A DNA stretch of 64,000 bases, from positions 62,001 through 126,000 of the forward strand of contig CAMBMO010000002.1 in assembly GCA_945868805.1 (NCBI GenBank), given 5' to 3'. This document shows positions 36,250 through 62,926 of this stretch, one piece after another. Each line of letters opens with the position of its first letter. Position 1 is the first letter of the stretch. The notes beneath the pieces were generated by a model that had not been told where the DNA came from, did not search any database, and saw nothing but the letters and a program-made list of their open reading frames with translations. The stretch comes from Singulisphaera sp. GP187 (GTDB taxonomy: Bacteria > Planctomycetota > Phycisphaerae > Phycisphaerales > SM1A02). The translations under genes and the position numbers were made by a program.

Positions 36250-38196
36250 ATGTCCAATAGCGCGACAAACAATCTCCTCGAGTCAGAACCCACAAAGTTG
36301 AAGTCCAAGAATCGCATTCTGGCCGGGCTCTCCATCGGCGCGCTGGGAATCGTCTTCGGGGACATCGGAACGAGTCCGCTTTATGCATTTCGGGAAGGCT
36401 TCATCGGTCACGGTCCGGAAAATGTGACAACCGACTCCGTCTTCGGACTCATCAGTGTCTTCTTCTGGACCCTCGTCGTCATCATCGGCGTCAAGTACAC
36501 CTTTTTCATTCTGCGTGCAGACAACCGGGGCGAAGGTGGAATATTCGCGTTGCTGTCGCTCCTGCCAACTTCGAAGGAAGGTTCGGTTTTCAAATTGCCA
36601 ACATTCCTGTTCGTCATGGGAATCGCTGGTGCCGCGCTCCTCTACGCGGACGGGCTCATCACCCCGGCGATTTCGGTTCTCTCCGCACTCGAAGGACTCA
36701 AGGTCCTTATGCCGAAGACCAACGGGCATTCGACCGCGATGTTTGCCGAAGGCTTCATTGTCCTCATCGCACTCGGGGTGCTCTTGGCACTCTTCGTGAT
36801 CCAACGGAAGGGGACTTCATTCATCGGTCGTCTGTTCGGGCCGGTGATGGTGGTGTGGTTCGCCGTACTCGGATTGCTCGGAATTGTGAGCACGTGCCAG
36901 ACGCCTGAAGTTCTTCATGCGCTCAATCCGATGCACATCCCGAGTGTTGTTGGGGCATCGCTCGCCTCGACCGTGACCGTCCTTGGCGCGGCGATGCTCT
37001 GCATAAGCGGCGGAGAGGCTCTCTATGCGGATCTCGGGCATTTCGGCAGGAAACCGATCATGTGGGCTTGGTACGGAATCGCAATGCCGGGACTCGTCTT
37101 GAACTACCTCGGCCAAGGTGCGCTTCTCTTGCGAGATCACGAGGCGCTCGCGAATCCGTTCTACGGACTCGTCCCAACCTGGGGCCTCGTACCCATGGTG
37201 ATCCTGTCGACCGCTGCGGCGATCATTGCGAGCCAAGCGATCATCACAGGGATGTTCTCTCTCACGCACTCAGCAATATTGATGGGATTCTTGCCCCGAC
37301 TTCGGGTCGTTCACACCTCAGACCACGGATCGCAGGTGTATGTCCCGACCATCAATTCGATCGCGCTCGTCCTCGTGGCACTGATCGTGATCACATTCCG
37401 ATCATCCGACAAACTCTCGCACGCCTATGGACTTTCCGTTGCCGGTGGTATGGCGATCGTCACCGTTCTATACGCAATTCTCATGCGTCGGCAACGTCGT
37501 TGGGGCATCATCCGGTTCACAGTTTTTCTGGGGATCTTTCTGACTCTCGACCTCCTGTTCGTCGGGACGAACGCGTTCAAGATCCCCAGTGGCGGATGGC
37601 TCACACTTGTGATCGCCGCCAGCATCGTCTTCCTCATGCTCACATGGGTTCGAGGTCGCAAGTACATGACGGATCGCTACTCGCGACAAACACTCGGCTA
37701 CGACCACCTTCTCAATAGTCTCCAAACGCACCCAGTTCCTCGTGTCGCAGGGACGGCGGTCTTTTTGACTCCGCAATCGACTGGCGTTCCCCCAACGCTC
37801 TTGCATCACCTTAAGCACAACAAGGTCCTGCACGAACAAGTGGTGATCATGTCGGTGCAATCGACATCCGTTCCAGTCGTGGATCCAGAGGATCAAGTGA
37901 CGATCGAGGAACTCCGGGATGGATTCTGGACACTGACCGCTCGCCACGGATTTCTGCAGTCCGCCGATGTTCCGCGGATGCTCCGGATCGCATGCGATCT
38001 TGGCCTTGAGACCACCGAAGGGACAACCACTTTTTATCTTGGAAGGACGATCGTCACTCCGCGCGGGCGATCGCCAATGCCAGGATTTCAGAAGCGCCTC
38101 TTCTGCGCGCTTGCACAAATCAGTTCGAATAATCCCCTCTACTTCTCGATTCCACCCGGTCGTATGGTCGAACTCGGAATTCAAGTGGACATTTAA
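36250..38196 (+). CDS. kup: Kup-family potassium uptake protein
   Basis: This 648-residue transporter has the Kup/HAK signatures: IVFGDIGTSPLYAFRE in helix 1, LRADNRGEGGIFALLSLL after helix 2, and YADGLITPAISVLSALEG. About 12 membrane helices run to residue 460, followed by a cytoplasmic tail of about 180 residues (MVEL near the end). Kup imports K+ with protons at low affinity. The length is typical (about 620-650). It starts 53 bases after the only -10-like element seen, downstream of a perfect inverted repeat, and precedes the Sel1 lipoprotein gene by 62 bases. Confidence 0.93.
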   Translation: MSNSATNNLLESEPTKLKSKNRILAGLSIGALGIVFGDIGTSPLYAFREGFIGHGPENVTTDSVFGLISVFFWTLVVIIGVKYTFFILRADNRGEGGIFALLSLLPTSKEGSVFKLPTFLFVMGIAGAALLYADGLITPAISVLSALEGLKVLMPKTNGHSTAMFAEGFIVLIALGVLLALFVIQRKGTSFIGRLFGPVMVVWFAVLGLLGIVSTCQTPEVLHALNPMHIPSVVGASLASTVTVLGAAMLCISGGEALYADLGHFGRKPIMWAWYGIAMPGLVLNYLGQGALLLRDHEALANPFYGLVPTWGLVPMVILSTAAAIIASQAIITGMFSLTHSAILMGFLPRLRVVHTSDHGSQVYVPTINSIALVLVALIVITFRSSDKLSHAYGLSVAGGMAIVTVLYAILMRRQRRWGIIRFTVFLGIFLTLDLLFVGTNAFKIPSGGWLTLVIAASIVFLMLTWVRGRKYMTDRYSRQTLGYDHLLNSLQTHPVPRVAGTAVFLTPQSTGVPPTLLHHLKHNKVLHEQVVIMSVQSTSVPVVDPEDQVTIEELRDGFWTLTARHGFLQSADVPRMLRIACDLGLETTEGTTTFYLGRTIVTPRGRSPMPGFQKRLFCALAQISSNNPLYFSIPPGRMVELGIQVDI

Positions 38197-38258
38197 GCCA
38201 TCAGGATCTCGTCCGCCGATCGTTGGAACCGCTCGAGAAGATTCGTTACACTCTTCAG

Positions 38259-40166
38259 GTGTTTCACTTAAACATCCGATCATTCGCGCGTTTGTCGATG
38301 ACGACCCTGGTCGTCGCGCTCGTCGGATGTTTGGAACAACCTCAGATCAGCGCAGACGAATCGCTCGCACAGGCAAAGCGCTACGCAACTGGAGATGGCG
38401 TCTCGATCGACATGATCGAAGCGGTCAGGCAATACGAACTCGCTGCGAAGCTAGGCAATCTCGAGGCAGCGCTCGTGCTCGTCGAAATCCACGACGAAGG
38501 GCGCCCTGCCATTCCCAGCAACGCGACGACTAGCGCACGATGGCTCAAAGTCTGTGCTGAACTGGGCGACTGCAATTCTGCGCTTCACTTTGCCCAATTG
38601 ATCGATCAAGGCAAGGTCGCGCTGGCGGATCCAGTCGAGGCAGCGCGCTGGTACCTCGTCGCCGCCAAGCTTGGAAGTTCCGATGGCGCGCTCGAGATTG
38701 GAATCCGCCTCGCCGATGGCGTTGGGGTTCCGAAAGATCAAGCGGCAGCGATTCCATGGCTTGAAACAGCGTCGAAGGCGAACCGTTCTGAGGCATGCAG
38801 ATGGCTCGGGGTGATCCACTCAAGCGGCGAAGGAGTCGCTCTCGATCAGACGACTGCGACCGACTGGTTCCGATTAGCAGCCGAACGTGGAGATTCACGC
38901 AGCCAGTATCACTTTGCGACCAGGCTTCACCAAGGTATCGGCGTCCAAGCGAATCCGGACGAGGCACTTGAATGGTTCCGTCTCTCCGCAGAGCAAGGAC
39001 TCGTCGACGCCCAAATCACCCTCGGCGTGACTCTGCGCGATGGGACGCTCGTGGAGGTCGACTCGGTCGAAGCCGTGAAATGGTTTCAACGTGCGGCCGA
39101 AACGGGATCGGCGATCGCACAACTGCACCTCGCACGCATGTTTGCGCATGGCGATGGAATTGCGCGTAATACGGTCGAAGCAGCCAAGTGGTACAAGCTC
39201 GCGGCGGATCAGGGGTCGGTTGCAGCAAACATCTCGCTTGGAATGTTGCATAGCGCGGGCGACGGTGTTGTAAAAGATGGACAAGCAGCCGCGCGATGCT
39301 TCTTGAACGCCGCGGAGAGGGGCGATGCGGACGCACAGTTGCTCCTCGGAAGAATCCTGCTCTACGGAGAAGGTGTCTCCGCAAATCCGCGTGAAGCCGC
39401 GGCGTGGTTCGATAAGGCGTCCCTCTCCGGACTCGCCGCAGCGCAGTACGAGTTGGGGCGGCTCTATGAGTTTGGAGTGGGAGTTCCCGGCGACAATTCC
39501 GAAGCAAATCGGTTGTACACCCTCTCTGCAAATCAGGAGTATCCGGATGCTTGTTTCTCGCTCGGGTGGCGATACGACACAGGCAATGGATTCCCCGAAA
39601 GCGATCTCGAAGCTGCAAGGTGGTATCAAATTGCAGCCGACCAGGGCGTCCCTCACGCGAAGTTTCAATTGGGTGTGCTATTCGAACGCGGTGATGGAGT
39701 GCCACAAAACGAAGGAATCGCCGCTCGCTATTACCTTGACGCTGCGGAGCAGGGCTTGGACTGGGCGCAGTTTTTCCTCGCGCAGTTGCATCGTCGAGGC
39801 GCGGGCGTTGCGTTCGACCAAACTATCGCGTACGGATGGCTAAACATTTCGGCGAGCGCCGGGAACAACACCGCTGCGCATGAACGAAACCAACTTCGCA
39901 CGAAGCTCACCAAGGACGAAATCTCACGGGCACAGGATCTTTCGCTCAAAATGCTCAAGGTCTCCCCAGAAGTCGCGCTTGCGAATCGGCAGAGATTCTC
40001 GCCACCAGGGCAGCGTCGTGCGGGATCAACCCAGACTGGTTCGATGCAACCGAGCGACCGCACTCGCGATTTGATTGGTGGCAACGAGAACAAACCTCGT
40101 GACGATGGTTCGGGCAATCAGAAGTCCCGAACGCCACGCGTTCCGCGCAGCCCAAGTTCGCGGTAG
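38259..40166 (+). CDS. Sel1-repeat lipoprotein
   Basis: From a GTG at 38259 this is about 635 residues with a lipoprotein signal (MFHLNIRSFARLSMTTLVVA, lipobox LVGC). A TTG at 38223 or the ATG at 38298 are alternative starts. The mature protein is almost entirely Sel1-like repeats, about 36 residues each and roughly 14 copies. They follow the pattern of A-x-W-(F/Y), A-A-x-x-G, A-(Q)-x-x-L-G, G-x-G-V. Such solenoids are protein-interaction scaffolds. The last 60 residues are polar and probably disordered. The partner is unknown; the adjacent Kup may be chance. Confidence 0.85.
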   Translation: MFHLNIRSFARLSMTTLVVALVGCLEQPQISADESLAQAKRYATGDGVSIDMIEAVRQYELAAKLGNLEAALVLVEIHDEGRPAIPSNATTSARWLKVCAELGDCNSALHFAQLIDQGKVALADPVEAARWYLVAAKLGSSDGALEIGIRLADGVGVPKDQAAAIPWLETASKANRSEACRWLGVIHSSGEGVALDQTTATDWFRLAAERGDSRSQYHFATRLHQGIGVQANPDEALEWFRLSAEQGLVDAQITLGVTLRDGTLVEVDSVEAVKWFQRAAETGSAIAQLHLARMFAHGDGIARNTVEAAKWYKLAADQGSVAANISLGMLHSAGDGVVKDGQAAARCFLNAAERGDADAQLLLGRILLYGEGVSANPREAAAWFDKASLSGLAAAQYELGRLYEFGVGVPGDNSEANRLYTLSANQEYPDACFSLGWRYDTGNGFPESDLEAARWYQIAADQGVPHAKFQLGVLFERGDGVPQNEGIAARYYLDAAEQGLDWAQFFLAQLHRRGAGVAFDQTIAYGWLNISASAGNNTAAHERNQLRTKLTKDEISRAQDLSLKMLKVSPEVALANRQRFSPPGQRRAGSTQTGSMQPSDRTRDLIGGNENKPRDDGSGNQKSRTPRVPRSPSSR

Positions 40167-40271: not shown

Positions 40272-40679
40272 TCAATAACGATCGCGACCGCCACCACCGC
40301 CACCACCGCCACCGCCGTAGCCGCCGCCGCCGCCACTGCGACCGCCGCCGCCACCACCGTAGCCACCACCACTGCGTCCGCCACCGCCACCGCCGCCGCC
40401 ACCGAATCCACCACGACCGCCGCCGCCGCCGCCAGTGGCAGGTGGACGAGCTTCGTTCACGGTGAGGTTGCGACCATCGAACGGCTTACCGTTGGATTCT
40501 TCAATCGCCTTCTTGGCAGATTCATCATCCGCCATCGTGACGAATGCAAATCCGCGCGATCGACCGGTTTCACGATCAGTTGCGATGAACACTTCTGTGA
40601 CTGCACCAAACTGACCAAAAAACTCAGCCAACGATTCCTGCGTAGCCTTAAACGGGAGATTTCCTACATACAGCTTCAT
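40272..40679 (-). CDS. Glycine-rich RNA-binding protein (RRM domain)
   Basis: This 135-residue protein has one RNA recognition motif at residues 1-78, with RNP2 as LYVGNL and RNP1 as RGFAFVTM. A glycine-rich tail of about 55 residues follows (GGGGG runs broken by R, S and Y). This is the layout of cyanobacterial Rbp proteins and plant glycine-rich RNA-binding proteins, often linked to cold stress or mRNA localisation; the role here is inference. The Shine-Dalgarno AAGGAAGG sits seven bases before the ATG, one of the strongest in the window. It ends in a clear terminator, so it is probably a highly expressed single-gene unit. Confidence 0.92.
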
Positions 40680-40839
40680 AACAATACCTTCCTTCAAGCG
40701 CAAGCTCAGCGAATACCGATACGAAATGAAGCGTAGGACATCGAAGCGCAGGCGCGAACCTTAAGAAACGAGTAACGGACACTCCGTACTCTTGCGACTT
40801 AAGCATACAGTAACGTTTAACTCAATGCGAGCAAATTTT

Positions 40840-42939
40840 ATGTCTGATGCTTCAAACGGATCTCACATTCGGTTTCGAAACTCCATTCTCGCGCGGTTTT
40901 TGCTCGTGGGTATCCTCCCAGCAGGGCTGGTCGTCATTGTCCTGATTGGGCTCGGTAACCGTAATAGCCTCAAGGCTTTCCGATTAGATCACGAGCACGA
41001 CCTGACCGTTACGGGTGCCGAGATAGCAGACGAACTGGGGGAAGAAAATCGTGCCACACTCAGTATTGCGACGTTCATTGCTCGATCGCAGGAAACAGGG
41101 ATGTGGGGCAAGTACCCAGAAACGGTCTCGATTCTTCAAGCATTGATTAGCGCTACCCCAACCGTTATCGGAACTTATGTTGATTATCTTCCGATCGCGG
41201 GAGACCCCGTGGATGTCGACCCAAACCTCCCAGGTTCATTCGATTCCACAGGGCGGTTTACCCCCTATGTCTATAAGGATTGGACAAAGAACAACGAAAT
41301 TAAAGTGAAACCGTCTATCGATGCCGACACGAGTCTTTGGTTTGGCGGGGTCAAACGGGAATTCGAACGAACAGGTTCACGCGCTGCCCGGGTCACTGAG
41401 CCCTATGTCTACGACGGCCAGATGATGATCGAGCACGCTTGCCCGATCATCATCGATGGAAAATTTCGTGGAGTCGGAGGCGCAGATCGATCGCTCAAGA
41501 ACATTGATGCGCACTTGCGGAATGTCTGCGGACTTCTCGGTGTCGACGGATTCTTGATTTCGTCTGGACAGGACACCCCTGGATTCGAAAAGTCACCCGC
41601 CTTCATCGCAGCGACGACCGACGAGGTGCGCTCGAGCGAAAGTGACACGAATGGCCTCTTGCGAACGCAAACTGTGGTTTCGAGCCCCTACTCGGAACTT
41701 TTCACCCGATTTCGCAACTCCAAGAGCGAGGCCATTGAATACGCGATGGATCCGGTCTTGAAGACCCAATGCCTCTATGTGATGGTCCCGATCGCCACTG
41801 GTGATTGGATGCTGGTCCTTCGACAATCTGAGGAGAAGATGCTCGCGCCCGTTTGGGCGCAGGTGTACGAACAGAGCGCCCAAGGAATCGCTGGGCTCGC
41901 CATCATTGCGATTGCGCTCTTCATTCCCGCGGTGCAGATCACACGACGCGTGCGCCGCGCCGGAGCAGCAGCCGATCAGATTGCCTCGGGTGATCTCTCC
42001 GCGTCAATCGCCGTGGAGGACGGTGGCGACGAAACCGCATCACTCCTTCGTGCGCTGAATACGATGGCACACTCGCTTCAGACGATTGTTCGGGGTGTGA
42101 AGCAGGCGACGGTCAACATCAATTCGACCGCGACTCAATTGGCTGCGACAGCTCGCGAACAGGATGGATCCGCACAGTCGCTCGGTGCGAGCACATCGCA
42201 AATCGCGGCGGCAATCAAGGAGATTTCTTCGACAGCGAGTGACCTTTCGAACTTGATGGAGAAGGTGGATCGATCCGCGACAGCGACTGCCGATCTCGCA
42301 CGCGATGGCCGTCATTCGCTCGAAGGAATGACGACAGCGATGCAATCGCTCGACGAAGGAACGCATTCGATCGCAGGTCGACTTTCGACCATCAGCGAGA
42401 AGGCGAGTTCGATCAACGCGATTGTCACAACCATCACGAAAGTCGCTGACCAGACGAATCTTCTCTCGGTGAACGCGGCGATCGAGGCGGAGAAAGCCGG
42501 CGAGCACGGAGTTGGATTCCTCGTCGTTGCTCGAGAGATTCGGCGATTGGCCGATCAGACTGCGTCCGCGACACTCGACATCGAACAGACCGTTCGGCAC
42601 ATGCAAGGCGCGGTCAGTGCTGGAGTCATGGAGATGGATCGCTTCAGCGAGCAAGTTCGTCGAGGCGTCACCGAGACCGCCCGTATCGGCGGACAACTGG
42701 GTGAGATCATCCAACAAGTCGAATCTGGCACGACGGACTTCCGTCAGGTCTCCGAAGGCATGAAGGCACAGACCGAAGGTGCCAAGCAGATCTCCGATGC
42801 CATGGGGCAACTCACCACTGGCGCGCGCGAGGCGGTCACAGCGGCGAAAGAAACATGTCGAGCCGCGGAAGGGCTTCAGGAATCGATCACAGGATTGCGT
42901 GGCGGAGTCGCGGTTTTTCGATTGACCGAATCTCCCTAA
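40840..42939 (+). CDS. Methyl-accepting chemotaxis protein, WspA-like, with large periplasmic sensor
   Basis: This is a receptor of about 699 residues. TM1 is near residues 14-36 (FLLVGILPAGLVVIVLIGLG), a periplasmic region of about 300 residues follows that looks Cache-like, then TM2 near 347-367 and a HAMP domain. The signalling tip reads VADQTNLLSVNAAIEAEKAG, followed by FLVVAREIRRLADQT and ATLDIE. The IEAEKAG and REIRRLADQT variants are characteristic of WspA, not of flagellar MCPs. It has no CheR-docking pentapeptide at the C-terminus. It heads the chemosensory operon. Starts at 40840 (preferred), 40825 or a TTG at 40792 are possible. Confidence 0.92.
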   Translation: MSDASNGSHIRFRNSILARFLLVGILPAGLVVIVLIGLGNRNSLKAFRLDHEHDLTVTGAEIADELGEENRATLSIATFIARSQETGMWGKYPETVSILQALISATPTVIGTYVDYLPIAGDPVDVDPNLPGSFDSTGRFTPYVYKDWTKNNEIKVKPSIDADTSLWFGGVKREFERTGSRAARVTEPYVYDGQMMIEHACPIIIDGKFRGVGGADRSLKNIDAHLRNVCGLLGVDGFLISSGQDTPGFEKSPAFIAATTDEVRSSESDTNGLLRTQTVVSSPYSELFTRFRNSKSEAIEYAMDPVLKTQCLYVMVPIATGDWMLVLRQSEEKMLAPVWAQVYEQSAQGIAGLAIIAIALFIPAVQITRRVRRAGAAADQIASGDLSASIAVEDGGDETASLLRALNTMAHSLQTIVRGVKQATVNINSTATQLAATAREQDGSAQSLGASTSQIAAAIKEISSTASDLSNLMEKVDRSATATADLARDGRHSLEGMTTAMQSLDEGTHSIAGRLSTISEKASSINAIVTTITKVADQTNLLSVNAAIEAEKAGEHGVGFLVVAREIRRLADQTASATLDIEQTVRHMQGAVSAGVMEMDRFSEQVRRGVTETARIGGQLGEIIQQVESGTTDFRQVSEGMKAQTEGAKQISDAMGQLTTGAREAVTAAKETCRAAEGLQESITGLRGGVAVFRLTESP

Positions 42940-42950
42940 CGGAGTCTTGA

Positions 42951-43412
42951 ATGCGCATCGTCGAAGTGTGGCTCGGACAGCAGCGTTGCGCGATACCCGT
43001 TGTCGCGATCGACGAGGTCTTGCCCATCGTTGAAGCGCGCAAGCTCTCGGGAACGCCAGATTGGATCGTCGGAATCGCGCGACTTCGAGGGGCGTTTGTG
43101 CCTCTCGTTGACGCCGCGAGCATCTGCACGGGAAATCCAATCGTTCGCACGATGAACGCCCGTGCGATTTTAATGCGTCCGGGAGCAACCGGAAGTGCAA
43201 TGCGACTCGCGATTTTGGTTGACAGTGTTGGGACACTTCGCTCGGTCGATTTCGAGGCGCCGGGATCGCACCCAGGAATCGTCGGTGCCGGGAGAGGCGC
43301 GCTCACAAGCATCGCAACGGATGTCGATGGCGAGATTTACCTTCTCGACCCGAGCAAGATCGTCGGCGATGAAGACCGCCAACTTTTCCGTGACGCGATG
43401 GGATCGGCGTGA
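42951..43412 (+). CDS. CheW-like coupling protein (WspB position)
   Basis: This 153-residue protein is a single CheW domain: MRIVEVWLGQQRCAIPVVAI at the start, the conserved turn GIARLRGAFVPLVDAAS, and LAILVDSVGTLRSV. CheW links receptors to CheA in the signalling array. It lies 11 bases after the MCP stop and overlaps the cheR start by four bases (GTGA). In Wsp systems two CheW proteins flank CheR, and this one takes the WspB position. Its sequence alone does not separate WspB from other CheW proteins. Confidence 0.88.
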   Translation: MRIVEVWLGQQRCAIPVVAIDEVLPIVEARKLSGTPDWIVGIARLRGAFVPLVDAASICTGNPIVRTMNARAILMRPGATGSAMRLAILVDSVGTLRSVDFEAPGSHPGIVGAGRGALTSIATDVDGEIYLLDPSKIVGDEDRQLFRDAMGSA

Positions 43413-44656
43413 CAGTGTCGGAGTCGAGTCGAGACATCCTCTGGCTCGCTCAGTTTCTCGCCGCGCGAACGAGTCTCGCTCCCGCACTCTTGGATGGTCC
43501 GGCATTTGCGAGCGCGACGCGAGGTCGCATGACGCACCTCCAGATCGCGGATCTCGAAAACTACTGCGCATTGGTTGTGCGAAGCGAGCACGAAATGCAG
43601 TGCCTTGCGGCCGAGGTCGCCGTTCCCGAGACTTGGTTTTTTCGCTATCCGGCGAGTTTCGAGTTCTTGCAGGATCAGCTCGTTGCACGTCGCCGAGAAT
43701 CCTCGCAGCGACTTGTCATTGCGAGTCTCGGTTGTGCGACTGGTGTCGAGCCTTGGTGCATCGCGGCATGCGCGCTCTCGGCAGGATGGCGGAGCGATCA
43801 GGTGAAGGTGCATGCGATCGATCGAAGTCCATTCGCAATCGAGTCGGCGAAGTGTGGTCGAATTCCTGGCGGAAGTTTGCGAAGCCCGCTCCCCGAATGG
43901 TCCGATCCTTGGATTCGAGCAAATGGGTCGACGGTTGTCATTTCACAGGAAGTACTCAATTGCGTCGAGTTCCGACAGCAGGACATCCTGACCACCGTCG
44001 GACTCTTCGCTGAACCAATCGATGTGCTTTTCTGCCGAAATGTGATGATCTATCTTGATGCGTCGGCTCGGATTGCCCTACGCGATCGGATCGTCGGATG
44101 GATCGCCAAAGATGGACTCGTCTTCTTCGGGCATGCGGATGGTCTCGAACGAGGAACCGTTCTCGAATCAGCGGGCGTGCCTTCGGCATTCGCATGGCGG
44201 CGACGGGTCGCTCTCCCCGCAAACTCGACGCCGCTCAACAATTCACGCCAGATCGGACGATCGAGTCCCGACTCTCCCGCGGTCTCTCCGAGGGTCTCTT
44301 CGAGTGCCCCGAGGAAAACGCAACTCCCAATACCTCCAACGGCACATCCCGCAATACCGACCGCACAATCGATCCGATCGCTCATCGTTGCGATGGATTT
44401 CGACTCTGCCAAACGTGCCCTCGACGCGAAACTCGCCGCAGACCCAGCGAACACTGAATTGCTCGAACTGCTCGCTGGAGTCCATTCGGCTCAAGGTGAA
44501 CTTGTGCCGGCGATCCAGGCGTATAGCAGAGTCGTATACCTTGAGCCGAGTCACGGACCAGCCCTGCTCGCGCTCGCCGAATTGTCAGCCGCCTTGGGGC
44601 GGACGGAAGACGCAAGTCGATATCGAGCGCGGATGAAACGACTGGGCGATTCGTGA
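43409..44656 (+). CDS. CheR-type MCP methyltransferase with C-terminal TPR (WspC-like)
   Basis: This 415-residue protein starts at a GTG overlapping the previous stop. The CheR N-terminal helices lead to VPETWFFRYPASFEFL, the SAM-binding loop SLGCATGVEPWCIA, and FCRNVMIYLD. After a Pro/Ser-rich linker at about 275-325, residues 330-415 form two or three tetratricopeptide repeats (DPANTELLELLAGVHSAQGE and following). The CheR-TPR architecture matches WspC. It should methylate glutamates of the adjacent receptor using S-adenosylmethionine, with CheB reversing this. Confidence 0.9.
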   Translation: MTVSESSRDILWLAQFLAARTSLAPALLDGPAFASATRGRMTHLQIADLENYCALVVRSEHEMQCLAAEVAVPETWFFRYPASFEFLQDQLVARRRESSQRLVIASLGCATGVEPWCIAACALSAGWRSDQVKVHAIDRSPFAIESAKCGRIPGGSLRSPLPEWSDPWIRANGSTVVISQEVLNCVEFRQQDILTTVGLFAEPIDVLFCRNVMIYLDASARIALRDRIVGWIAKDGLVFFGHADGLERGTVLESAGVPSAFAWRRRVALPANSTPLNNSRQIGRSSPDSPAVSPRVSSSAPRKTQLPIPPTAHPAIPTAQSIRSLIVAMDFDSAKRALDAKLAADPANTELLELLAGVHSAQGELVPAIQAYSRVVYLEPSHGPALLALAELSAALGRTEDASRYRARMKRLGDS

Positions 44657-44669
44657 ACAGGGCTCAACG

Positions 44670-45251
44670 ATGAACGCGACCGACTCACCAACACCTGCCG
44701 ATCCTCGCTCGCCAATGAAGCGACTCTTGGATCGACCCAACGCCCCGACGACGATCGCCGAAGCGACGAAGGGCAACGCTGAGTCGCGAATACTTCGTCG
44801 CGAACCACAGCACAACCTATTGCTCATGCGCTGCGGGAGCGAGTGGTTTGCAATCCCGGCAGAGTGTGTCGTGCAAGTGTCGAGAGTGACCAAGGTCCAT
44901 GCGCTTCCGCACAAGACGAATCGTTCATTTCGAGGGCTGACTGCGAGTTCCGGTGCGATCGTTCCGGTCATCGATCTGCTGGGGTTGCTTGGCATCCCTC
45001 CCGCCGCTGCATCGGTCGAACGAAAACCACGCATGGTGATCGTCGGTTCGGACATCGAGCCCTGGGGATTCGAAGCAGACGAAGTGCCTGGAGTTTTTGC
45101 CATGCCCCGCGCAGCGGTGAAGCCCCTTCCGCTCACGGTGGAGCAAGCACCAAAGCGCGTCACGAGCGGGCTCTTGTCGACAACGCACGGTCCCGCATCG
45201 TTGATCGATCCGGTTCGACTTGTTGGAGAATTCAAAAATGCAATTGGATGA
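44670..45251 (+). CDS. CheW-like coupling protein (WspD position)
   Basis: This 193-residue protein has a polar N-terminal extension of about 45 residues before the CheW domain (LLLMRCGSEWFAIPAECVVQV, then FRGLTASSGAIVPVIDLLGLLG). The second CheW between CheR and CheA, with an N-terminal extension, is the position and shape of WspD. AGGG sits eight bases before the ATG. It lies 13 bases after the cheR stop and 31 before the cheA start. It should couple the receptor to the kinase, possibly giving a different array contact from the first CheW. Confidence 0.88.
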   Translation: MNATDSPTPADPRSPMKRLLDRPNAPTTIAEATKGNAESRILRREPQHNLLLMRCGSEWFAIPAECVVQVSRVTKVHALPHKTNRSFRGLTASSGAIVPVIDLLGLLGIPPAAASVERKPRMVIVGSDIEPWGFEADEVPGVFAMPRAAVKPLPLTVEQAPKRVTSGLLSTTHGPASLIDPVRLVGEFKNAIG

Positions 45252-45282
45252 CGAACGGCGGTTCTCGAATGGAGCATGATTA

Positions 45283-47559
45283 ATGGACTTGGGTGGTTTC
45301 TCCATGTTCGATCTCTTCCAAACCGAAGCACGGCAGCACTGCGCCAGCCTCGCCGACGGATTGATTGCGCTCGAACAGAACGCGAGCGATCCGAAAATGG
45401 TCGAACCACTGATGCGCGCAGCGCATTCGGTCAAGGGAGCTGCTCGCATCATCAATCTCGACGGTGCGATCGGTCTCGCCCACGCCATGGAAGAGTGCCT
45501 CGTCCGAATCCAACGCGGAGCTGAGATTCCGATTCCATCACGCATCGACGAGTTGCTGCGCGGAAGCGACATTCTTCGCTCGCTGGCGGACAGGTCGGGC
45601 GAAGAGGATGCGCGCGCGTGGCTCGAGAGCGAAAAGGCGTCGATCACCGCTCTCGCTGATGCGCTGAATCAACCGCCAAGAGCAGGCGAACCGGCGAAAG
45701 CCGCACCCACGCCCGTCGCCTCGACTCCATCGATTCCCATCACTGCACCTGAGGGTGTGGCGAAACCCGCTGTCGTCGCGACGCCCAAGACACCCGAAGA
45801 CAAGTCGCCTCCAGCACCAACGACGCACAGTTCGGGAAGTGCGCAAGACGCCGCCGTTCTCGTTTCTTCGTCAAGTCTCGAACGACTCCTTCAACTCTCG
45901 GGAGAGTCGCTCGTCGAGTCACGAAGACTCGAATCGATTCGGCGCACGCTCACCCGTGCGAAATCTGCCCAACGGCAGTTGACGGACGCGCTTGACTCGC
46001 TGGGTCTGAATGGACGAAAGGCCGGAGATGCGATGACTGCAGTCGCATCGAGTCGCGATGCGCTCGAGGATGCGTTGCATCAAGTCGAGGATCATCTTCG
46101 CAGAGGCGAGGAGCTCGCGAGCGCGCTCCATAATGAAGCGGTCTCGAGTCGCATGAGGCCATTCGGTGACGCATGTGGCGGACTCGCACGTTCCGTGCGC
46201 GATGTCGCTCGAACACTCGGCAAAGAAGTTCGACTCGTGCTCTCAGGAGAACAAGTACCCGTCGATCGAGAGATTCTGCGCCAACTGGACGCGCCACTCG
46301 GTCACCTCGTCCGCAACGCGATCGATCACGGAGTCGAACTCCCCGATGATCGTGTCGCGGCGGGAAAGCCTCGTCAAGCAACACTGCGAGTCGAGGCTCG
46401 ACATCATGCCGGAAGTCTCGTTGTCGAGGTGCGCGAGGACGGGCGTGGAATCAATCGGGAGAATCTGCGGGCGCGAATCGTTTCGAAGAAGCTCTCGGAT
46501 CCAGAGATGGTCCAGACTCTTGGCGACGCGGAGCTCTTCGATTTTCTGTTTCTGCCTGGATTCTCGACAGCCGCATCGATCACCGACATCTCGGGACGGG
46601 GCGTCGGGCTCGATGTCGTTCAATCGATGGCGCACTCGGTCGGCGGGTCAATCGAGGTCCGTTCAACATCGAATGGAACATCGTTTGCGATGCGATTGCC
46701 AGTCACTCTGTCGGTCGTACGGGCGGCAGTCATCTCGATCGGTGGAGAAACTTATGCGCTCGCGCTTTCTCGACTCGAGCGGATTGATCGGATCCCGCGG
46801 AGCGATCTCCAGACTGTCGAGGGTCGGCTCACGACGGTCATCCGTGGTGAGACCGTGGGACTGGTCCATGCGCGTGAGATCCTCGATCTCCCCTCGGCGA
46901 CGACAGCGGAGACGACGGACGAGTTGTCAATCGTCAGCGTGCTCGCAGGTGCGCGGACTGTCGGATTTGTTGTCGACTCCTTCCTCGGCGAAGAGGATCT
47001 CGTCGTCCGTCGCCTCGACACCAGATTTGGCGATGTCTCGCATGTCAACGCTGCAAGCATCCGTGAGAATGGCGATCTCCTTCTCATTTTGGACGCCGAC
47101 GATCTCGTGCAATCAGCTCTCCAACTGCTCGAACAGGGCAAGTTGCGCGGACACGGGGTCGAAAACGCCACAGGCAGGCGTGCAAAGCGGAGAGTGCTCG
47201 TCGTCGAAGACTCGATCACCGTGCGCGAGGTTGAACGACAGATGCTCCTTCGCGCCGGGTACATGGTTGACACGGCGATCGACGGTGTCGACGGATGGAA
47301 CGCCGTCCAAAAGGCGACCTACGACCTCATCGTCAGCGATGTCGACATGCCACGAATGAATGGAATCGAACTCGTCCGCAAGCTGCGCGCCGATCGACGA
47401 TACGAAACGATCCCGATTGTCATCGTGAGCTACAAAGATCGCGAAGAGGATCGGCTCGCGGGTCTCGATGCGGGCGCGTCGGCGTACCTGACAAAGGGTT
47501 CATTTCAAGATCAGTCGTTCCTTCAGACCGTCGCGGACCTGATAGGAACTGTCGCCTGA
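45283..47559 (+). CDS. Hybrid CheA histidine kinase with C-terminal receiver (WspE-like)
   Basis: This 758-residue kinase has an N-terminal HPt domain with phospho-accepting His48 (MRAAHSVKGAARI) and a Pro/Ala-rich linker at about 125-185. A dimerisation region follows, then the ATPase with N-box LVRNAIDHGVE, EDGRGIN and SGRGVGLDVV. The CheW-like regulatory domain comes next, and a receiver at about 636-758 with phospho-acceptor Asp686 (VSDVDMPRMNG). No P2 CheY-binding domain is evident. HPt-kinase-CheW-REC is the WspE layout. GGAG lies eight bases before the ATG; Met8 is an alternative start. The stop overlaps cheB by one base (TGATG). Confidence 0.93.
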   Translation: MDLGGFSMFDLFQTEARQHCASLADGLIALEQNASDPKMVEPLMRAAHSVKGAARIINLDGAIGLAHAMEECLVRIQRGAEIPIPSRIDELLRGSDILRSLADRSGEEDARAWLESEKASITALADALNQPPRAGEPAKAAPTPVASTPSIPITAPEGVAKPAVVATPKTPEDKSPPAPTTHSSGSAQDAAVLVSSSSLERLLQLSGESLVESRRLESIRRTLTRAKSAQRQLTDALDSLGLNGRKAGDAMTAVASSRDALEDALHQVEDHLRRGEELASALHNEAVSSRMRPFGDACGGLARSVRDVARTLGKEVRLVLSGEQVPVDREILRQLDAPLGHLVRNAIDHGVELPDDRVAAGKPRQATLRVEARHHAGSLVVEVREDGRGINRENLRARIVSKKLSDPEMVQTLGDAELFDFLFLPGFSTAASITDISGRGVGLDVVQSMAHSVGGSIEVRSTSNGTSFAMRLPVTLSVVRAAVISIGGETYALALSRLERIDRIPRSDLQTVEGRLTTVIRGETVGLVHAREILDLPSATTAETTDELSIVSVLAGARTVGFVVDSFLGEEDLVVRRLDTRFGDVSHVNAASIRENGDLLLILDADDLVQSALQLLEQGKLRGHGVENATGRRAKRRVLVVEDSITVREVERQMLLRAGYMVDTAIDGVDGWNAVQKATYDLIVSDVDMPRMNGIELVRKLRADRRYETIPIVIVSYKDREEDRLAGLDAGASAYLTKGSFQDQSFLQTVADLIGTVA

Positions 47560-48596
47560 TGCGCATCGCAATTGTCAACGACTTGCGCATAGCGCAGGAG
47601 ATTCTCCGCCACGCCGTCGGCTTGATTCCTGGTGCGAGCGTTGCCTGGATCGCGCTCGATGGGCGAGAAGCGCTCACCAAGTGTCGCGCAGATAGGCCAG
47701 ATCTCATTCTGATGGACATGGTGATGCCTGTCATGGATGGTGCGCTCTCGACGCGAGCGATCATGAAAGAATGCCCCTGCCCGATCCTCGTCGTCACGAG
47801 CTCGATCGAGGGCAATCTTTCGCTTGTCTATGAAGCGCTCAGTGCTGGTGCGATCGACGCCGTTCATACGCCGACGATGGGTTCCAACGGAACGATTAAC
47901 GGTGTCGACGCGCTCGCCCGTAAGGCTCGCGTTGCGCTCGCGGCAAATGGAGCAGCGTGGAGTCACAGTCCTACAAGCCCCACTCCGTCGATCGACCGAA
48001 GTGTCGGTCGAGTCGCGGGGATCCATTCGGGAGCCCCGCTTGTGGCGATCGGATCATCGACTGGCGGTCCCCATGCGCTTTCGGTCGTTCTGCGAGACCT
48101 CTCGTCCGCTCCTCCATGTTGCATCGTCATCGTGCAACACATCGACAAGACATACGCCCCTGGTCTCGCACAGTGGTTGAGCGGCGAGATCAAGCGTCCG
48201 GTGACTGTCGCCGTTGAAGGGACTGCCCTCTCGCCAAACATGATTCTGGTCGCATCAACCGAAGATCACCTCGTCGTGCGTGGCGGGGTTCTGCGTTATG
48301 TTGTCGAGCCAGTCCAGCAGATTTTTCGCCCAAGCGTCGATGTCTTCTTCGCGAGCATCCGTCAAGATCGAATCACATCGAGCGTTGCCATTCTCCTCAC
48401 CGGGATGGGACGCGATGGTGCAGAGGGGCTTCGTGCGCTCCGCGACAGTGGGTGGCACACGATCGCGCAGGACGAGTCGACAAGCGTCGTTTGGGGGATG
48501 CCCGGTGCGGCGGTCGCGATGGGTGCCGCCGTCGAAGTTCTTCCGCTCGAACGGATCGGAGTCGCCGCGATCAGCGCACTGCAAGCAGTTCGCTGA
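47559..48596 (+). CDS. cheB: CheB-type protein-glutamate methylesterase (WspF-like)
   Basis: This 345-residue protein has an N-terminal receiver (acceptor aspartate in LILMDMVMPVMDG) and a C-terminal methylesterase domain with the catalytic triad in place: serine in IGSSTGG, histidine in VQHID, aspartate in LTGMGRDGAEG. It removes receptor methyl groups when phosphorylated by CheA, setting adaptation; in Wsp systems loss of WspF locks the array on. It starts at an ATG that shares one base with the cheA stop. The gene symbol reflects the enzyme class; the context is that of wspF. Confidence 0.93.
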   Translation: MRIAIVNDLRIAQEILRHAVGLIPGASVAWIALDGREALTKCRADRPDLILMDMVMPVMDGALSTRAIMKECPCPILVVTSSIEGNLSLVYEALSAGAIDAVHTPTMGSNGTINGVDALARKARVALAANGAAWSHSPTSPTPSIDRSVGRVAGIHSGAPLVAIGSSTGGPHALSVVLRDLSSAPPCCIVIVQHIDKTYAPGLAQWLSGEIKRPVTVAVEGTALSPNMILVASTEDHLVVRGGVLRYVVEPVQQIFRPSVDVFFASIRQDRITSSVAILLTGMGRDGAEGLRALRDSGWHTIAQDESTSVVWGMPGAAVAMGAAVEVLPLERIGVAAISALQAVR

Positions 48597-48639
48597 TCGT
48601 CGTGCGAAGTGCACGATTCCCCGTAAACTCTTGGGCTCG

Positions 48640-49812
48640 ATGAGCGACACCTTTCTTTCAACATCAAGCGAAGCGGCAGGGCGTGTTGTCGTGTTGCTCG
48701 TCGATGACCAGCCGATCATCGGCGAAGCACTCCGTCGAATCTGCGCCGCTCAACCCGATTTCGATTATCACTTCTGTTCCGATCCGCTGAAAGCCGTTGC
48801 GATGGCGACGCAGATCGAACCGACGGTCATCCTGCAGGATCTCGTGATGCCCGGTATCGATGGGCTCGACTTGGTGCTTCACTATCGGCAGAACGCGCCC
48901 ACGAAGCTCATCCCGCTCGTGGTCCTTTCGTCAAAGGAAGAAGCGACGACCAAGGCCGAGGCATTCGCTCGCGGTGCAAACGATTACATGGTGAAGTTGC
49001 CGGACCCGCTCGAAATCATCGCGCGACTTCGATATCACTCTCGTGGATACCGAGCGTTGCTCGAGCGCAATGAGGCGTTTCGATTGCTCAAGAACGAACT
49101 CGATCAGGCGGGTGACTATGTGAAGTCGCTCCTCCCTCCGACGCTCGACTATGCCGATCTCAAGATCCGCGGATCGTTCATTCCCAGTGCCCAACTCGGT
49201 GGCGACTTCTTCGGATGGCGTGAGCTTCCTGGCGACAATGTTGCGATCTTCTTGATCGATGTCTGCGGACACGGAGTCGGTCCCGCACTGCTTTCCGTCA
49301 GTGTCAGCAATGCGCTTCATGCAGGAGGATTCGAGGAGTCCGTTCTGCTCACTCCCGCGAAGGTGATGACACGGCTCAACGCGGCGTTTCCGATGTCGAA
49401 TCATCGCGGCATGTACTTCACAGGTTGGTACGCGGTCCTTCACCGTCCAACCCGAACATTGACTTGGGCGGGCGCTGGCCACCCTCCCGCCCTGGTGATA
49501 CGTCGAAACGGCGACTTCATCGAACTCGACTCACTCGGAACGCCAGTGGGAATCGTTCCAGAGTTCGATTACGAACAGACGTCAATCACGCTCGAAGTTG
49601 GAGACCGCATGTACATCTACAGCGATGGAATTGTCGAGATTCCAAAGCCGGATGGGACGGTCTGGTCCTATTCAGAGTTTCTCGCCTTCGCGCAGACTGA
49701 TTTGATGAAGGTGGCCGATCCGATCGCTCGCATGCTGGAATACACACGCGGGCTGCAAGGATCTGACCAGTACACCGACGATGTTTCGCTCATCGAACTC
49801 GCGCTTCCTTAG
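48640..49812 (+). CDS. Response regulator: WspR-like receiver fused to PP2C/SpoIIE-type phosphatase
   Basis: This 390-residue protein has a receiver at residues 16-135 with acceptor Asp67 (LQDLVMPGIDG) and the lysine in YMVKLPDP. The receiver resembles P. aeruginosa WspR closely as I recall it (VVVLLVDDQPIIGEALRR, HFCSDP, GANDYMVKLPD, RYHSRGYRAL). Instead of GGDEF, residues 165-388 are an RsbU-type PP2C phosphatase. Its metal-binding aspartates are all present: D189 in LGGDFF, D207 in LIDVCGHG, D329 in YSDG and D380/381 in YTDDVS. It should dephosphorylate a Ser/Thr phosphoprotein on signalling from the array. No STAS or anti-sigma partner is nearby. It begins 43 bases after cheB. Confidence 0.93.
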   Translation: MSDTFLSTSSEAAGRVVVLLVDDQPIIGEALRRICAAQPDFDYHFCSDPLKAVAMATQIEPTVILQDLVMPGIDGLDLVLHYRQNAPTKLIPLVVLSSKEEATTKAEAFARGANDYMVKLPDPLEIIARLRYHSRGYRALLERNEAFRLLKNELDQAGDYVKSLLPPTLDYADLKIRGSFIPSAQLGGDFFGWRELPGDNVAIFLIDVCGHGVGPALLSVSVSNALHAGGFEESVLLTPAKVMTRLNAAFPMSNHRGMYFTGWYAVLHRPTRTLTWAGAGHPPALVIRRNGDFIELDSLGTPVGIVPEFDYEQTSITLEVGDRMYIYSDGIVEIPKPDGTVWSYSEFLAFAQTDLMKVADPIARMLEYTRGLQGSDQYTDDVSLIELALP

Positions 49813-61664: not shown

Positions 61665-62926
61665 GCCATTGGACACCTCATCCGCCATCGCCGTCAACGC
61701 TGGGTGATCACGCAGTTCCTCGCGACGGTGATCACCTCGCAGGAAAACGCATCGCCCTCCTTGTGACGGGTGGGATCGCCGCCATGAAGGCACCGATGCT
61801 CGCCCGAAGTTTGCGACGCCAAGGCGCGCAAGTGACCGCGTTCGTCTCGGATGAAGGACTTCGATATGTCACCGAAGAAACACTCGCGTGGAGCACGGAT
61901 CGACCCGTCGTCACTCGCTTGACGGCACGAGCCGAGCACTTGTCGGGCGGTGACTCGTTTCACGCCTACCTCGTCGCGCCAGCCACATACAACACCATCA
62001 ACAAGGTGGCGTGCGGAATTGCCGACGGCGTGATCACCTCGACGCTCGCATCAGCACTCGGACGAATGGAGCGCGGAGAGTGCGCCGTCCTGATCTGTCC
62101 CACGATGCACGGATCGATGCACACACGCATTCTGACTGAGAGCCTTGAGAAACTGCAACAGTTCGGCGTGACAGTCGTGCCACCGCGAGACGATTACGGA
62201 AAGCACAACCTTCCCGATGATGAACCAATCGTCGTCAGTGTCTGTCGAGCGATCAGCACTTCACCACTTCGCGGAAAGCGCCTGCTCGTGACCGGCGGAC
62301 CAGTTCCATCATGCCTCGACGCGGTTCGACGAATCAGCAGTCGGTTTACCGGAGCACTGGGTATCGCAATCGCGAAGGAACTGGCGCACTGCGGTGCAGA
62401 TGTCGATCTTGTACTCGGCTCGGGGAGCGTCGATGCGCCACTCTGGCTCAACCCACGTATCGCGAGTTCGGTCGATCAATATGAGCAGATGGTGCTCGGA
62501 TCGCTCGCCACGACGGCGCACCTCGGAGCCGTCTTGAGCGCTGCCGTCGCTGACTTCAAACCCATCGATGTCCGTCCCGGAAAAGTGAAGACATCCGATG
62601 GCGACTGGACGGTGCACCTTCGCCCGACCGACAAGGTCATCGACGCAGTGCACCGGCGATTCCAATCGCTTCACCTCGTCGGATTTAAATTCGAAGAGAC
62701 GTCATCCCATGAGACCCTGATGGAAATCGCACGCGCCCGCGCGTCAGCGCACGGCGCGTGCGTCGCCAATCGTGGCGAAGAGAACGCGCCCGGAAGCGCA
62801 CAGGTCGCTTGGCTCGTCGTCCCAGGACGCGAACCCGTTCGGCTCGAAGGGAAGCCAGCAATCGCCACCGCGATCCGCGTCCATCTCGAACATCTTGAAA
62901 GCATCCATCGCATGGCCCACAACTGA
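61661..62926 (+). CDS. Divergent bifunctional CoaBC-like protein (phosphopantothenoylcysteine synthase/decarboxylase)
   Basis: This 421-residue protein has an N-terminal flavoprotein domain (LLVTGGIAAMKAPMLARSLR). A conserved histidine in AEHLSGG aligns exactly with CoaC's active-site HIE, ahead of YLVAPATYNTINKVACGIAD. The C-terminal part resembles the CoaB synthetase: LLVTGGPVPSCLDAVRRISS, FTGALGIAIAKELA and SAAVADFKP. The usual TAGGT(x)EPID is altered to VTGGPVPSCLD, and the CoaC substrate-clamp region reads CPTMHGSMHTR rather than PAMNxxMW. It probably takes part in CoA synthesis, but the changes leave room for another cofactor-related role. It is coupled to the RNase D gene. Confidence 0.75.
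   Translation: MSHWTPHPPSPSTLGDHAVPRDGDHLAGKRIALLVTGGIAAMKAPMLARSLRRQGAQVTAFVSDEGLRYVTEETLAWSTDRPVVTRLTARAEHLSGGDSFHAYLVAPATYNTINKVACGIADGVITSTLASALGRMERGECAVLICPTMHGSMHTRILTESLEKLQQFGVTVVPPRDDYGKHNLPDDEPIVVSVCRAISTSPLRGKRLLVTGGPVPSCLDAVRRISSRFTGALGIAIAKELAHCGADVDLVLGSGSVDAPLWLNPRIASSVDQYEQMVLGSLATTAHLGAVLSAAVADFKPIDVRPGKVKTSDGDWTVHLRPTDKVIDAVHRRFQSLHLVGFKFEETSSHETLMEIARARASAHGACVANRGEENAPGSAQVAWLVVPGREPVRLEGKPAIATAIRVHLEHLESIHRMAHN

Follow-up and report, generated by a model that had tools for sequence, protein, structure and literature searches.

This report concerns a seven-gene chemosensory operon at positions 40840-49812 of a 64,000-nucleotide stretch of planctomycete DNA (hereafter the window; contig CAMBMO010000002.1 of assembly GCA_945868805.1, recorded as Singulisphaera sp. 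GP187, positions 62,001 to 126,000 of the forward strand), which lies on contig C2 of a genome of 2.50 Mb in 47 contigs, estimated to be 95.8% complete. The operon has the complete Wsp gene order, its array core belongs to the Wsp clade, of the alternative-function class, and its last gene encodes a response regulator in which a WspR-type receiver is joined through a helical stalk to a SpoIIE-type PP2C phosphatase domain. The explanation as a whole, in which a Wsp-clade array works through a receiver-controlled PP2C by the mechanism proposed below, is regarded as probable.

Operon structure, Wsp kinship and sensory input

The seven genes lie on one strand in the order MCP-CheW-CheR-CheW-CheA-CheB-response regulator, and neighbours overlap or are separated by at most 43 bases. 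The first gene (40840..42939, +) encodes a WspA-like chemoreceptor (methyl-accepting chemotaxis protein, MCP) of 699 aa with a modelled dCache-type periplasmic domain, a HAMP domain and a signalling domain with an IEAEKAG tip; Pfam placed HAMP at residues 366-414 and MCPsignal at 507-658, and MCP-like_PDC_1 scored slightly below cut-off. It is followed by a WspB-like CheW (42951..43412, +; Pfam CheW, 65.9 bits), a WspC-like CheR with a C-terminal TPR (43409..44656, +; Pfam CheR, 107.5 bits, TPR_19 at 330-376), a WspD-like CheW (44670..45251, +; Pfam CheW, 69.5 bits), a WspE-like CheA-REC hybrid (45283..47559, +; Pfam Hpt, HATPase, CheW and receiver), a WspF-like CheB consisting of receiver and methylesterase (47559..48596, +; Pfam CheB_methylest, 178.8 bits) and the output regulator (48640..49812, +; REC-SpoIIE/PP2C, 390 aa). 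A first-pass annotation made from the sequence alone had read these genes as wspA-B-C-D-E-F-R, with a TPR tail on CheR and a receiver on CheA, and coordinates and Pfam matches agree with it on each point. By Pfam, the operon also has the feature by which the alternative cellular function (ACF) class is defined in PMC3447774, a CheR-TPR cluster with a multidomain response regulator.

Kinship was assessed in trees with five to seven flagellar-like rows as outgroup; Wsp was represented by Azoarcus, Cupriavidus, Variovorax, Burkholderia cenocepacia, Mesorhizobium, Novosphingobium and gammaproteobacterial metagenome-assembled genomes (MAGs), with no Pseudomonas row as a Wsp member. A quick tree was built from 98 CheA rows, and in it flagellar-like and other ACF/Tad-type rows separated from the 87 rows of Wsp type (support 99); the named outgroup did not form one side of a branch, and the Bacillus row grouped with that of a Deferribacter cluster, L149. 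After removal of 27 of the 98 rows (long, odd or near-duplicate), a careful CheA tree of 71 rows divided 64 Wsp-type rows from seven flagellar-like rows (100/100), and the window CheA fell inside the Wsp clade of the CheA trees. A joined tree of CheA, CheB, CheR and MCP, from which 26 of the 98 rows and then 8 more having fewer than three of the four proteins were dropped, divided 58 Wsp-type rows from six flagellar-like rows. Single trees of CheB (75 rows), MCP (59 rows) and CheR (71 rows) gave the same split with supports of 95, 99 and 99.9. Kinship with Wsp, as first proposed, was thus upheld by the CheA, CheB, CheR, MCP and joined trees, in none of which the array grouped with flagellar systems.

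The receptor tip agrees. Of 72 Wsp-scoring MCPs, 69 had a tip that could be read, and IEAEKAG was present in 68 of these, against none of the 13 readable ones among 17 other MCPs; it is diagnostic of Wsp-type MCPs. The second variant, REIRRLADQT, was present in 31 of the 69 and again in none of the 13. The earlier claim that both variants are specific to Wsp receptors was correct.

Three CheW domains were found genome-wide, all inside the operon (in its two CheW genes and in CheA), which makes it the sole chemosensory cluster of the genome. FlhA, by which alone flagella were judged, was found in 0 of 15 genomes (the window's own and 14 related) and in 4 of 14 control genomes, and Pfam found no receiver-only gene among the seven operon genes. 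The nearest CheA relatives (L004-L012, 66-81% identity) are all on MAG contigs, seven of the nine labelled planctomycetes; two of these seven carry the label Phycisphaerales and come from deep Lake Baikal.

Receptor residues 1-370 were modelled by AlphaFold2 as a dCache domain (pLDDT 81), with 3lib (TM 0.83 by target) and PctD 7prq as the best PDB matches. Among the fold matches are binders of amines or quaternary amines (7prq, 6d8v and 6fu4), which at 17-19% identity are too weak to name a ligand. Among four scanned receptors of GGDEF or WspH systems, three had 4HB_MCP_1 (L142, L143 and L144, the Azoarcus, B. cenocepacia and Mesorhizobium clusters), and no known sensory family was found in the fourth, L032; 4HB_MCP may therefore not define Wsp. 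Five other receptors of PP2C systems gave Cache_3-Cache_2 (L023, L069), a PDC match (L014) or no sensory family found (L012, L025). The surface sensing implied by the first-pass annotation found no support, since the window receptor models as dCache whereas the three canonical-type Wsp clusters have 4HB_MCP; on this model, surface contact should not be assumed as the stimulus. A second MCP, on contig C30 (L138:2749-6086, -), has a dCache_1 match below cut-off, HAMP and MCPsignal and adjoins a Peripla_BP_5 gene; because the genome has a single CheA, this receptor may signal through the operon's array as well. A similar pair of MCP and Peripla_BP_5-like genes lies divergent beside a gene for a 459-462 aa protein with a GGDEF match in L139 and L140.

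Output regulator and its relatives

The first-pass reading of the output as a phosphatase was borne out by a SpoIIE domain (136 bits) of PP2C type that keeps its metal-binding aspartates, and the receiver to which this domain is attached is of WspR type. Regulator residues 13-156 matched WspR of P. aeruginosa (3bre, E 5e-54) and of P. syringae (3e-51) in the PDB, the next receiver family being PleD (2e-13). The receiver searched alone gave WspR at 3e-55, the next match at 1e-14 and the RssB receiver at 3e-9, and it is identical to P. aeruginosa WspR at 88 of 142 aligned residues. The AlphaFold2 model of the regulator (pLDDT 90.6) aligned to WspR over residues 15-164, receiver and stalk (150 residues, 2.0 Å), and residues 143-390 aligned to SiaA-PP2C (240 residues, 2.7 Å), the top match among PP2C domains solved alone, as well as to the RsbU part of Rv1364c and to SpoIIE. 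Receiver and phosphatase are connected by a single predicted helix at codons 123-163 (49006..49128, +; DSSP on the model, H123-163). Receiver residues Asp67 and Lys119 and PP2C residues Asp189, Asp207, Asp329 and Asp380/381 were invariant in 26 of 26 aligned regulators, a selection from those found. The roles of these residues, metal binding by the aspartates included, were assigned from their families and are presumed to hold here; on that basis both halves of the regulator should be active, and the PP2C is apparently an active enzyme.

Linker length from receiver to phosphatase could be measured in 45 of 50 PP2C regulators and was 36 residues in 31 and 29 in 14, with no other length. The two lengths differ by one heptad, and the shorter is that of the window's own clade (L005, L007-L016, L024, L057 and the window). 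Measured to their own anchors, linkers were 37 residues in all 7 GGDEF regulators and 55 in all 5 cyclase regulators measured; left out were 14 regulators without the anchor motif, 10 without an effector anchor and the five PP2C regulators without a second anchor, and the measured set holds no kinase regulators. A fixed length is what a coiled-coil stalk carrying a signal by register would need.

The occurrence of such outputs was surveyed in 80 loci found by searching with the window's CheA, a sample in which output counts favour lineages near the window. A profile was built from 76 WspR-type receivers (own members: median 229 bits, minimum 1.4 counting weak extra domains); among the best 60 matches listed, further WspR-type receivers scored at least 124.7 bits and others at most 68.7. 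A WspR-type receiver was visible in 67 of the 80 loci; of the 13 without one, 11 lie on contigs that stop within 1.4 kb of CheA. L044 and L059 extend 10 kb downstream of a Wsp-type CheA, yet neither CheB nor a WspR-type regulator was found there. The outputs of the 67 were PP2C (42), PP2C with a second long regulator (3), GGDEF (14), a long regulator alone (6) and regulators cut short (2). GGDEF outputs were called by the GGDEF/GGEEF motif, and Pfam agreed for L032 and L038. By Pfam, the nine long regulators carry a class III nucleotidyl cyclase in seven cases (L035, L048, L053, L062, L065, L067, L082) and a histidine kinase in two (L022, L068). L048, L065 and L067 each have two WspR-type regulators in the cluster, whose effectors are a nucleotidyl cyclase and a PP2C.

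The complete Wsp gene order was present in 38 of the 67 loci with a WspR-type regulator, the others often being cut by contig ends. Instead of following CheB, the PP2C regulator gene is found on the 5' side of the MCP in L025, L047, L071 and L072, the same relocation as that of Burkholderia wspH. PP2C systems were found, by record label, in Planctomycetota, Thermodesulfobacteriota, Chlamydiota, Verrucomicrobiota, Kiritimatiellota, Lentisphaerota, Riflebacteria, Cyanobacteriota and one gammaproteobacterial MAG, among others; MAG labels may be wrong, and L057, labelled Bacteroidia, has a CheA near-identical to planctomycete ones, is a planctomycete contig by its position in the tree and is probably mis-binned. 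Going by these labels, the same core and receiver occur with other outputs in planctomycetes, desulfobacteria, chlamydiae, verrucomicrobia-like bacteria and cyanobacteria. A search of 392 genomes of the window's phylum gave full-length matches below 1e-100 in 21; six of these, the window's genome included, belong to its own family, from which 10 genomes were in the set.

Upstream of the operon, a small protein with a glycine-rich tail, by reading an RNA-binding protein, is encoded divergently from the MCP (40272-40703, -), and a similar protein lies upstream of the operon in L205 (12195-12683). Further upstream are genes read as a Sel1-like repeat protein and a potassium-transporter-like membrane protein (38223-40166, + and 36250-38196, +); L205 has a similar pair upstream of its operon too.

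Alternative readings of the output

A second WspR-type receiver in the same genome bears on the role of cyclic di-GMP (c-di-GMP). The phylum search found a 542 aa REC-GAF-HD protein at G000:C12:19507-21132 (L201:3008-4636, +; Pfam HD_5), in which an HD-GYP motif was seen by eye. Its receiver alone matched WspR best in the PDB (E 6e-33), the next match being 2e-9. Close versions (at least 59% identity, over most of the length or at both ends) were present in 5 of 17 related genomes (G002, G003, G005, G007, G009), those of G002, G003 and G009 apparently being shorter and without the GAF part. Six of seven receivers of GAF-HD type nested among planctomycete PP2C receivers in a 24-row group (99/93); the seventh, L204, sits on a very long branch, and a tree with all seven as one clade fits equally well (p 0.57). 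The C12 regulator likely arose by local duplication with acquisition of a new effector. Since the genome has only one CheA, it is fair to suppose that this kinase serves both the PP2C and the GAF-HD regulator, and the latter may be a second, parallel output that lowers c-di-GMP.

GGDEF occurs at one place in the genome, in a REC-GGDEF protein on contig C3 (L124:2389-3714, -), and the first-pass annotation was right that the window has none. This protein was rejected as a WspR encoded elsewhere in the genome: its best PDB match is PleD, and its receiver scored 67.0 bits on the WspR-receiver profile, against at least 124.7 for the further WspR-type receivers. A gene for an Hpt domain lies 9 bases upstream of it. 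The earlier claim that the output is a phosphatase and not a GGDEF protein thus stands for the operon; at the level of the genome c-di-GMP synthesis is not lacking, given the C3 protein, and c-di-GMP may stay involved through the C12 regulator.

It could be argued from these genes that the main output is still c-di-GMP, controlled through the WspR-type GAF-HD regulator together with a STAS protein that targets a diguanylate cyclase, an arrangement like that of the P. aeruginosa SiaABCD system (PMC9239204). The C12 regulator, the match of the modelled phosphatase to SiaA-PP2C and the presence of one REC-GGDEF protein are in its favour, as are the GAF-HD genes inside the operons of L018, L019, L052 and L058, where they stand near the operon start, before CheR, and directly before CheW in three. 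Linkage of this PP2C gene to a cyclase gene was not seen in the window's genome, and the receiver of the REC-GGDEF protein, which has an Hpt neighbour of its own, is PleD-like. We regard this account as on balance unlikely.

A second alternative is one-way rewiring, in which PP2C took the place of an ancestral diguanylate cyclase output of WspR type. The first-pass annotation had written of an array that has been rewired, and neither the event nor its direction was sustained. In the sample, which is centred on the window, more loci have PP2C than any other output (45 of 67). In a tree against 27 other SpoIIE proteins from related genomes, 34 PP2C domains of Wsp regulators and two cyanobacterial PP2Cs without a WspR-type receiver formed one clade of 36 rows (99/99.8); L049 (by score), truncated copies and near-duplicates had been left out. 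The 34 alone were not one branch in the best tree, and a single clade of them was not rejected (p 0.40). The nearest protein outside the clade, L170, is a receiver-PP2C protein with an ordinary receiver. In most of these phyla, then, the fusion of receiver and PP2C is old and its two halves travelled together, which is no one-off rewiring.

Exchange of effectors happens too. The cyanobacterial regulator of L049 (8999-10312, +) carries a different PP2C, which reached 53.5 bits with the Wsp-PP2C model where the others reached 318-372, and its receiver clusters with the receivers of two cyclase regulators (100/99). In the cyanobacteria L049, L181 and L182 a Wsp regulator has an unrelated-looking PP2C, and PP2Cs of the Wsp kind are found on proteins without a WspR-type receiver.

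The GGDEF and WspH systems formed one clade in the CheA (99/92), joined (98/94) and receiver (98/92) trees, and B. cenocepacia (L143, with a REC-HATPase regulator) sits inside it in the CheA and joined trees. In single trees this clade was not rejected for CheB (p 0.81) or CheR (p 0.68; 0.77 with L066), and the MCP tree contradicts it only without L066 (p 0.028; 0.275 with L066 added); these tests include L037 and L079, which are placed inside the clade and in which the contig stops short of the full output, and without these two p was 4e-5 (CheB), 3e-10 (MCP) and 1e-4 (CheR). The first receiver tree was rooted among GGDEF rows; a tree with GGDEF as one clade was better by 7.5 log-likelihood units, and was the best tree once the long-branched L204 was removed. 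The approximately unbiased (AU) test did not reject rooting on the GGDEF branch in the CheA, joined or receiver tree (p 0.372, 0.403 and 0.371), nor was a root on planctomycetes rejected in the first two (p 0.397 and 0.171), so that rooting is compatible with PP2C-first and with GGDEF-first. One-way rewiring draws on the cyanobacterial exchange, on Burkholderia, where WspH replaces WspR (PMC8552884; REC-HATPase in L143), and on the GGDEF root. PP2C outputs in several phyla, with 34 domains in one clade, put a recent change in this lineage out of the question, and the GGDEF/WspH systems form one clade among many PP2C lineages. The reading is judged improbable in its one-way form; an ancient change of output, in either direction, is possible.

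These results suggest, tentatively and with somewhat more doubt than confidence, that Wsp is an old chassis shared across phyla, with one receiver-stalk module and exchangeable PP2C, GGDEF, nucleotidyl cyclase, histidine kinase and HD-GYP effectors, in which PP2C would be ancestral or co-ancestral, the pseudomonad-type diguanylate cyclase derived, and one array would here drive two such regulators.

That the PP2C half serves as an adapter and not as an enzyme, as in RssB, is quite unlikely: P. aeruginosa RssB was the best full-length fold match of the regulator model (Z 28.6), though with a root-mean-square deviation of 14 Å over both domains, and against it stand the metal-binding aspartates retained in every aligned regulator and a receiver far closer to WspR than to RssB. 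An ordinary chemotaxis cluster of the flagellar class, although made of identical protein families, is highly improbable, being contradicted by the trees, unless these mislead badly, and further by the Wsp-type tip, the failure to find FlhA in the 15 genomes and the lack of a receiver-only gene among the seven.

Proposed mechanism and comparison with known systems

In the mechanism proposed for the receiver-controlled phosphatase, ligand binding at the dCache-type receptor, and perhaps also at the second MCP encoded elsewhere, would control CheA, which would pass phosphate to Asp67 of the regulator. Phosphorylation may then order the helical stalk into a crossing dimer and so switch on the two phosphatase domains, by analogy with the action of RsbT on RsbU, which is activated by the ordering of a flexible helical linker into a crossing dimer (PMC12143880, 2025). 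The phosphatase would dephosphorylate a STAS-domain protein, its likely substrate, kept phosphorylated by an RsbW-type kinase, and a sigma factor or an enzyme would be freed. CheR-TPR and CheB would adapt the receptor, the CheA receiver could act as a modulator or phosphate sink, and the C12 GAF-HD regulator would be the possible parallel output on c-di-GMP.

STAS domains occur at 10 places in the genome, and two clear RsbW-like kinases each lie beside a STAS gene, on contigs C10 and C13. Among 79 loci, many of them on short contigs, a STAS or RsbW gene was found in or beside the operon in three: a STAS gene 79 bases after the regulator in L064, an RsbW-type gene 13 bases after it in L023 and a STAS gene between CheB and the regulator in L031.

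Several points weigh against this account. No STAS or RsbW gene lies beside the window operon, and with linkage in only those three relatives the substrate is a guess. The STAS-RsbW pair on C13 adjoins an MlaE gene and may serve lipid transport, which makes the C10 pair the better candidate, and four other SpoIIE proteins in the genome could use the same targets. Phosphorylation of the GAF-HD regulator by CheA is inferred from receiver kinship alone, and the GAF-HD genes found inside the operons of four relatives have a weak receiver that is not of WspR type. The linker change by one heptad happened once, in a single clade.

A Wsp operon outside the pseudomonads, as the first-pass annotation had it, is real but not new by itself. 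A survey of 2021 confined Wsp to beta- and gammaproteobacteria and gave WspR or WspH as its output (PMC8552884), and thus already placed it in betaproteobacteria; WspE-WspRF was annotated in freshwater planctomycetes in 2019 (PMC6461901) and wspR in an Antarctic Phycisphaerales MAG in 2022 (PMC9119077). By gene annotation the planctomycete cases are possibly the same systems as that described here; the available parts of both papers do not mention a phosphatase output and read the genes as surface or biofilm control. Flagella are reported in one such freshwater family (PMC6461901), whereas FlhA was not found in the 15 genomes searched here. The name WspR in planctomycete annotations should be taken with caution and not as a sign of c-di-GMP synthesis or surface sensing.

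No description of a fusion between a WspR-type receiver and PP2C was met among the titles, abstract openings and passages listed by searches of open-access literature, which is weak evidence of absence. Set against that literature, what appears to be new is a single receiver family with exchangeable effectors, with PP2C as a main form, and the pairing of PP2C with GAF-HD seen here, none of which was found in print. Dimeric helical linkers have been proposed to make sensor domains exchangeable among PP2C phosphatases, histidine kinases and diguanylate cyclases (PMC12143880); that idea becomes directly testable through the natural experiment offered by a receiver-stalk family that bears all these effectors and has a linker of fixed length with a one-heptad shift.

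The system shares with the Wsp (WspR) systems of Pseudomonas and betaproteobacteria the gene order, CheR-TPR, CheA-REC, the receptor tip and an output receiver with its stalk, and differs from them in having PP2C in place of GGDEF as output and a dCache-type receptor in place of 4HB_MCP. WspH/WspHRR of B. cenocepacia (PMC4324302) is likewise a Wsp array with another effector, an HATPase, on a WspR-type receiver (L143); there wspH lies 5' of the cluster and the output domain is of kinase type. The ACF clusters tabulated in 2012 (PMC3447774) combine CheR-TPR with multidomain regulators whose outputs include a protein phosphatase and a mononucleotidyl cyclase, as well as kinase and GGDEF domains, but in the parts available those outputs are not tied to one WspR-type receiver. 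With the partner-switching phosphatases RsbU, RsbP, SiaA and RssB the regulator shares a SpoIIE-type PP2C behind a helical linker, here a predicted one, and it is set apart from them by its input, a WspR-type receiver fed by a chemosensory array.

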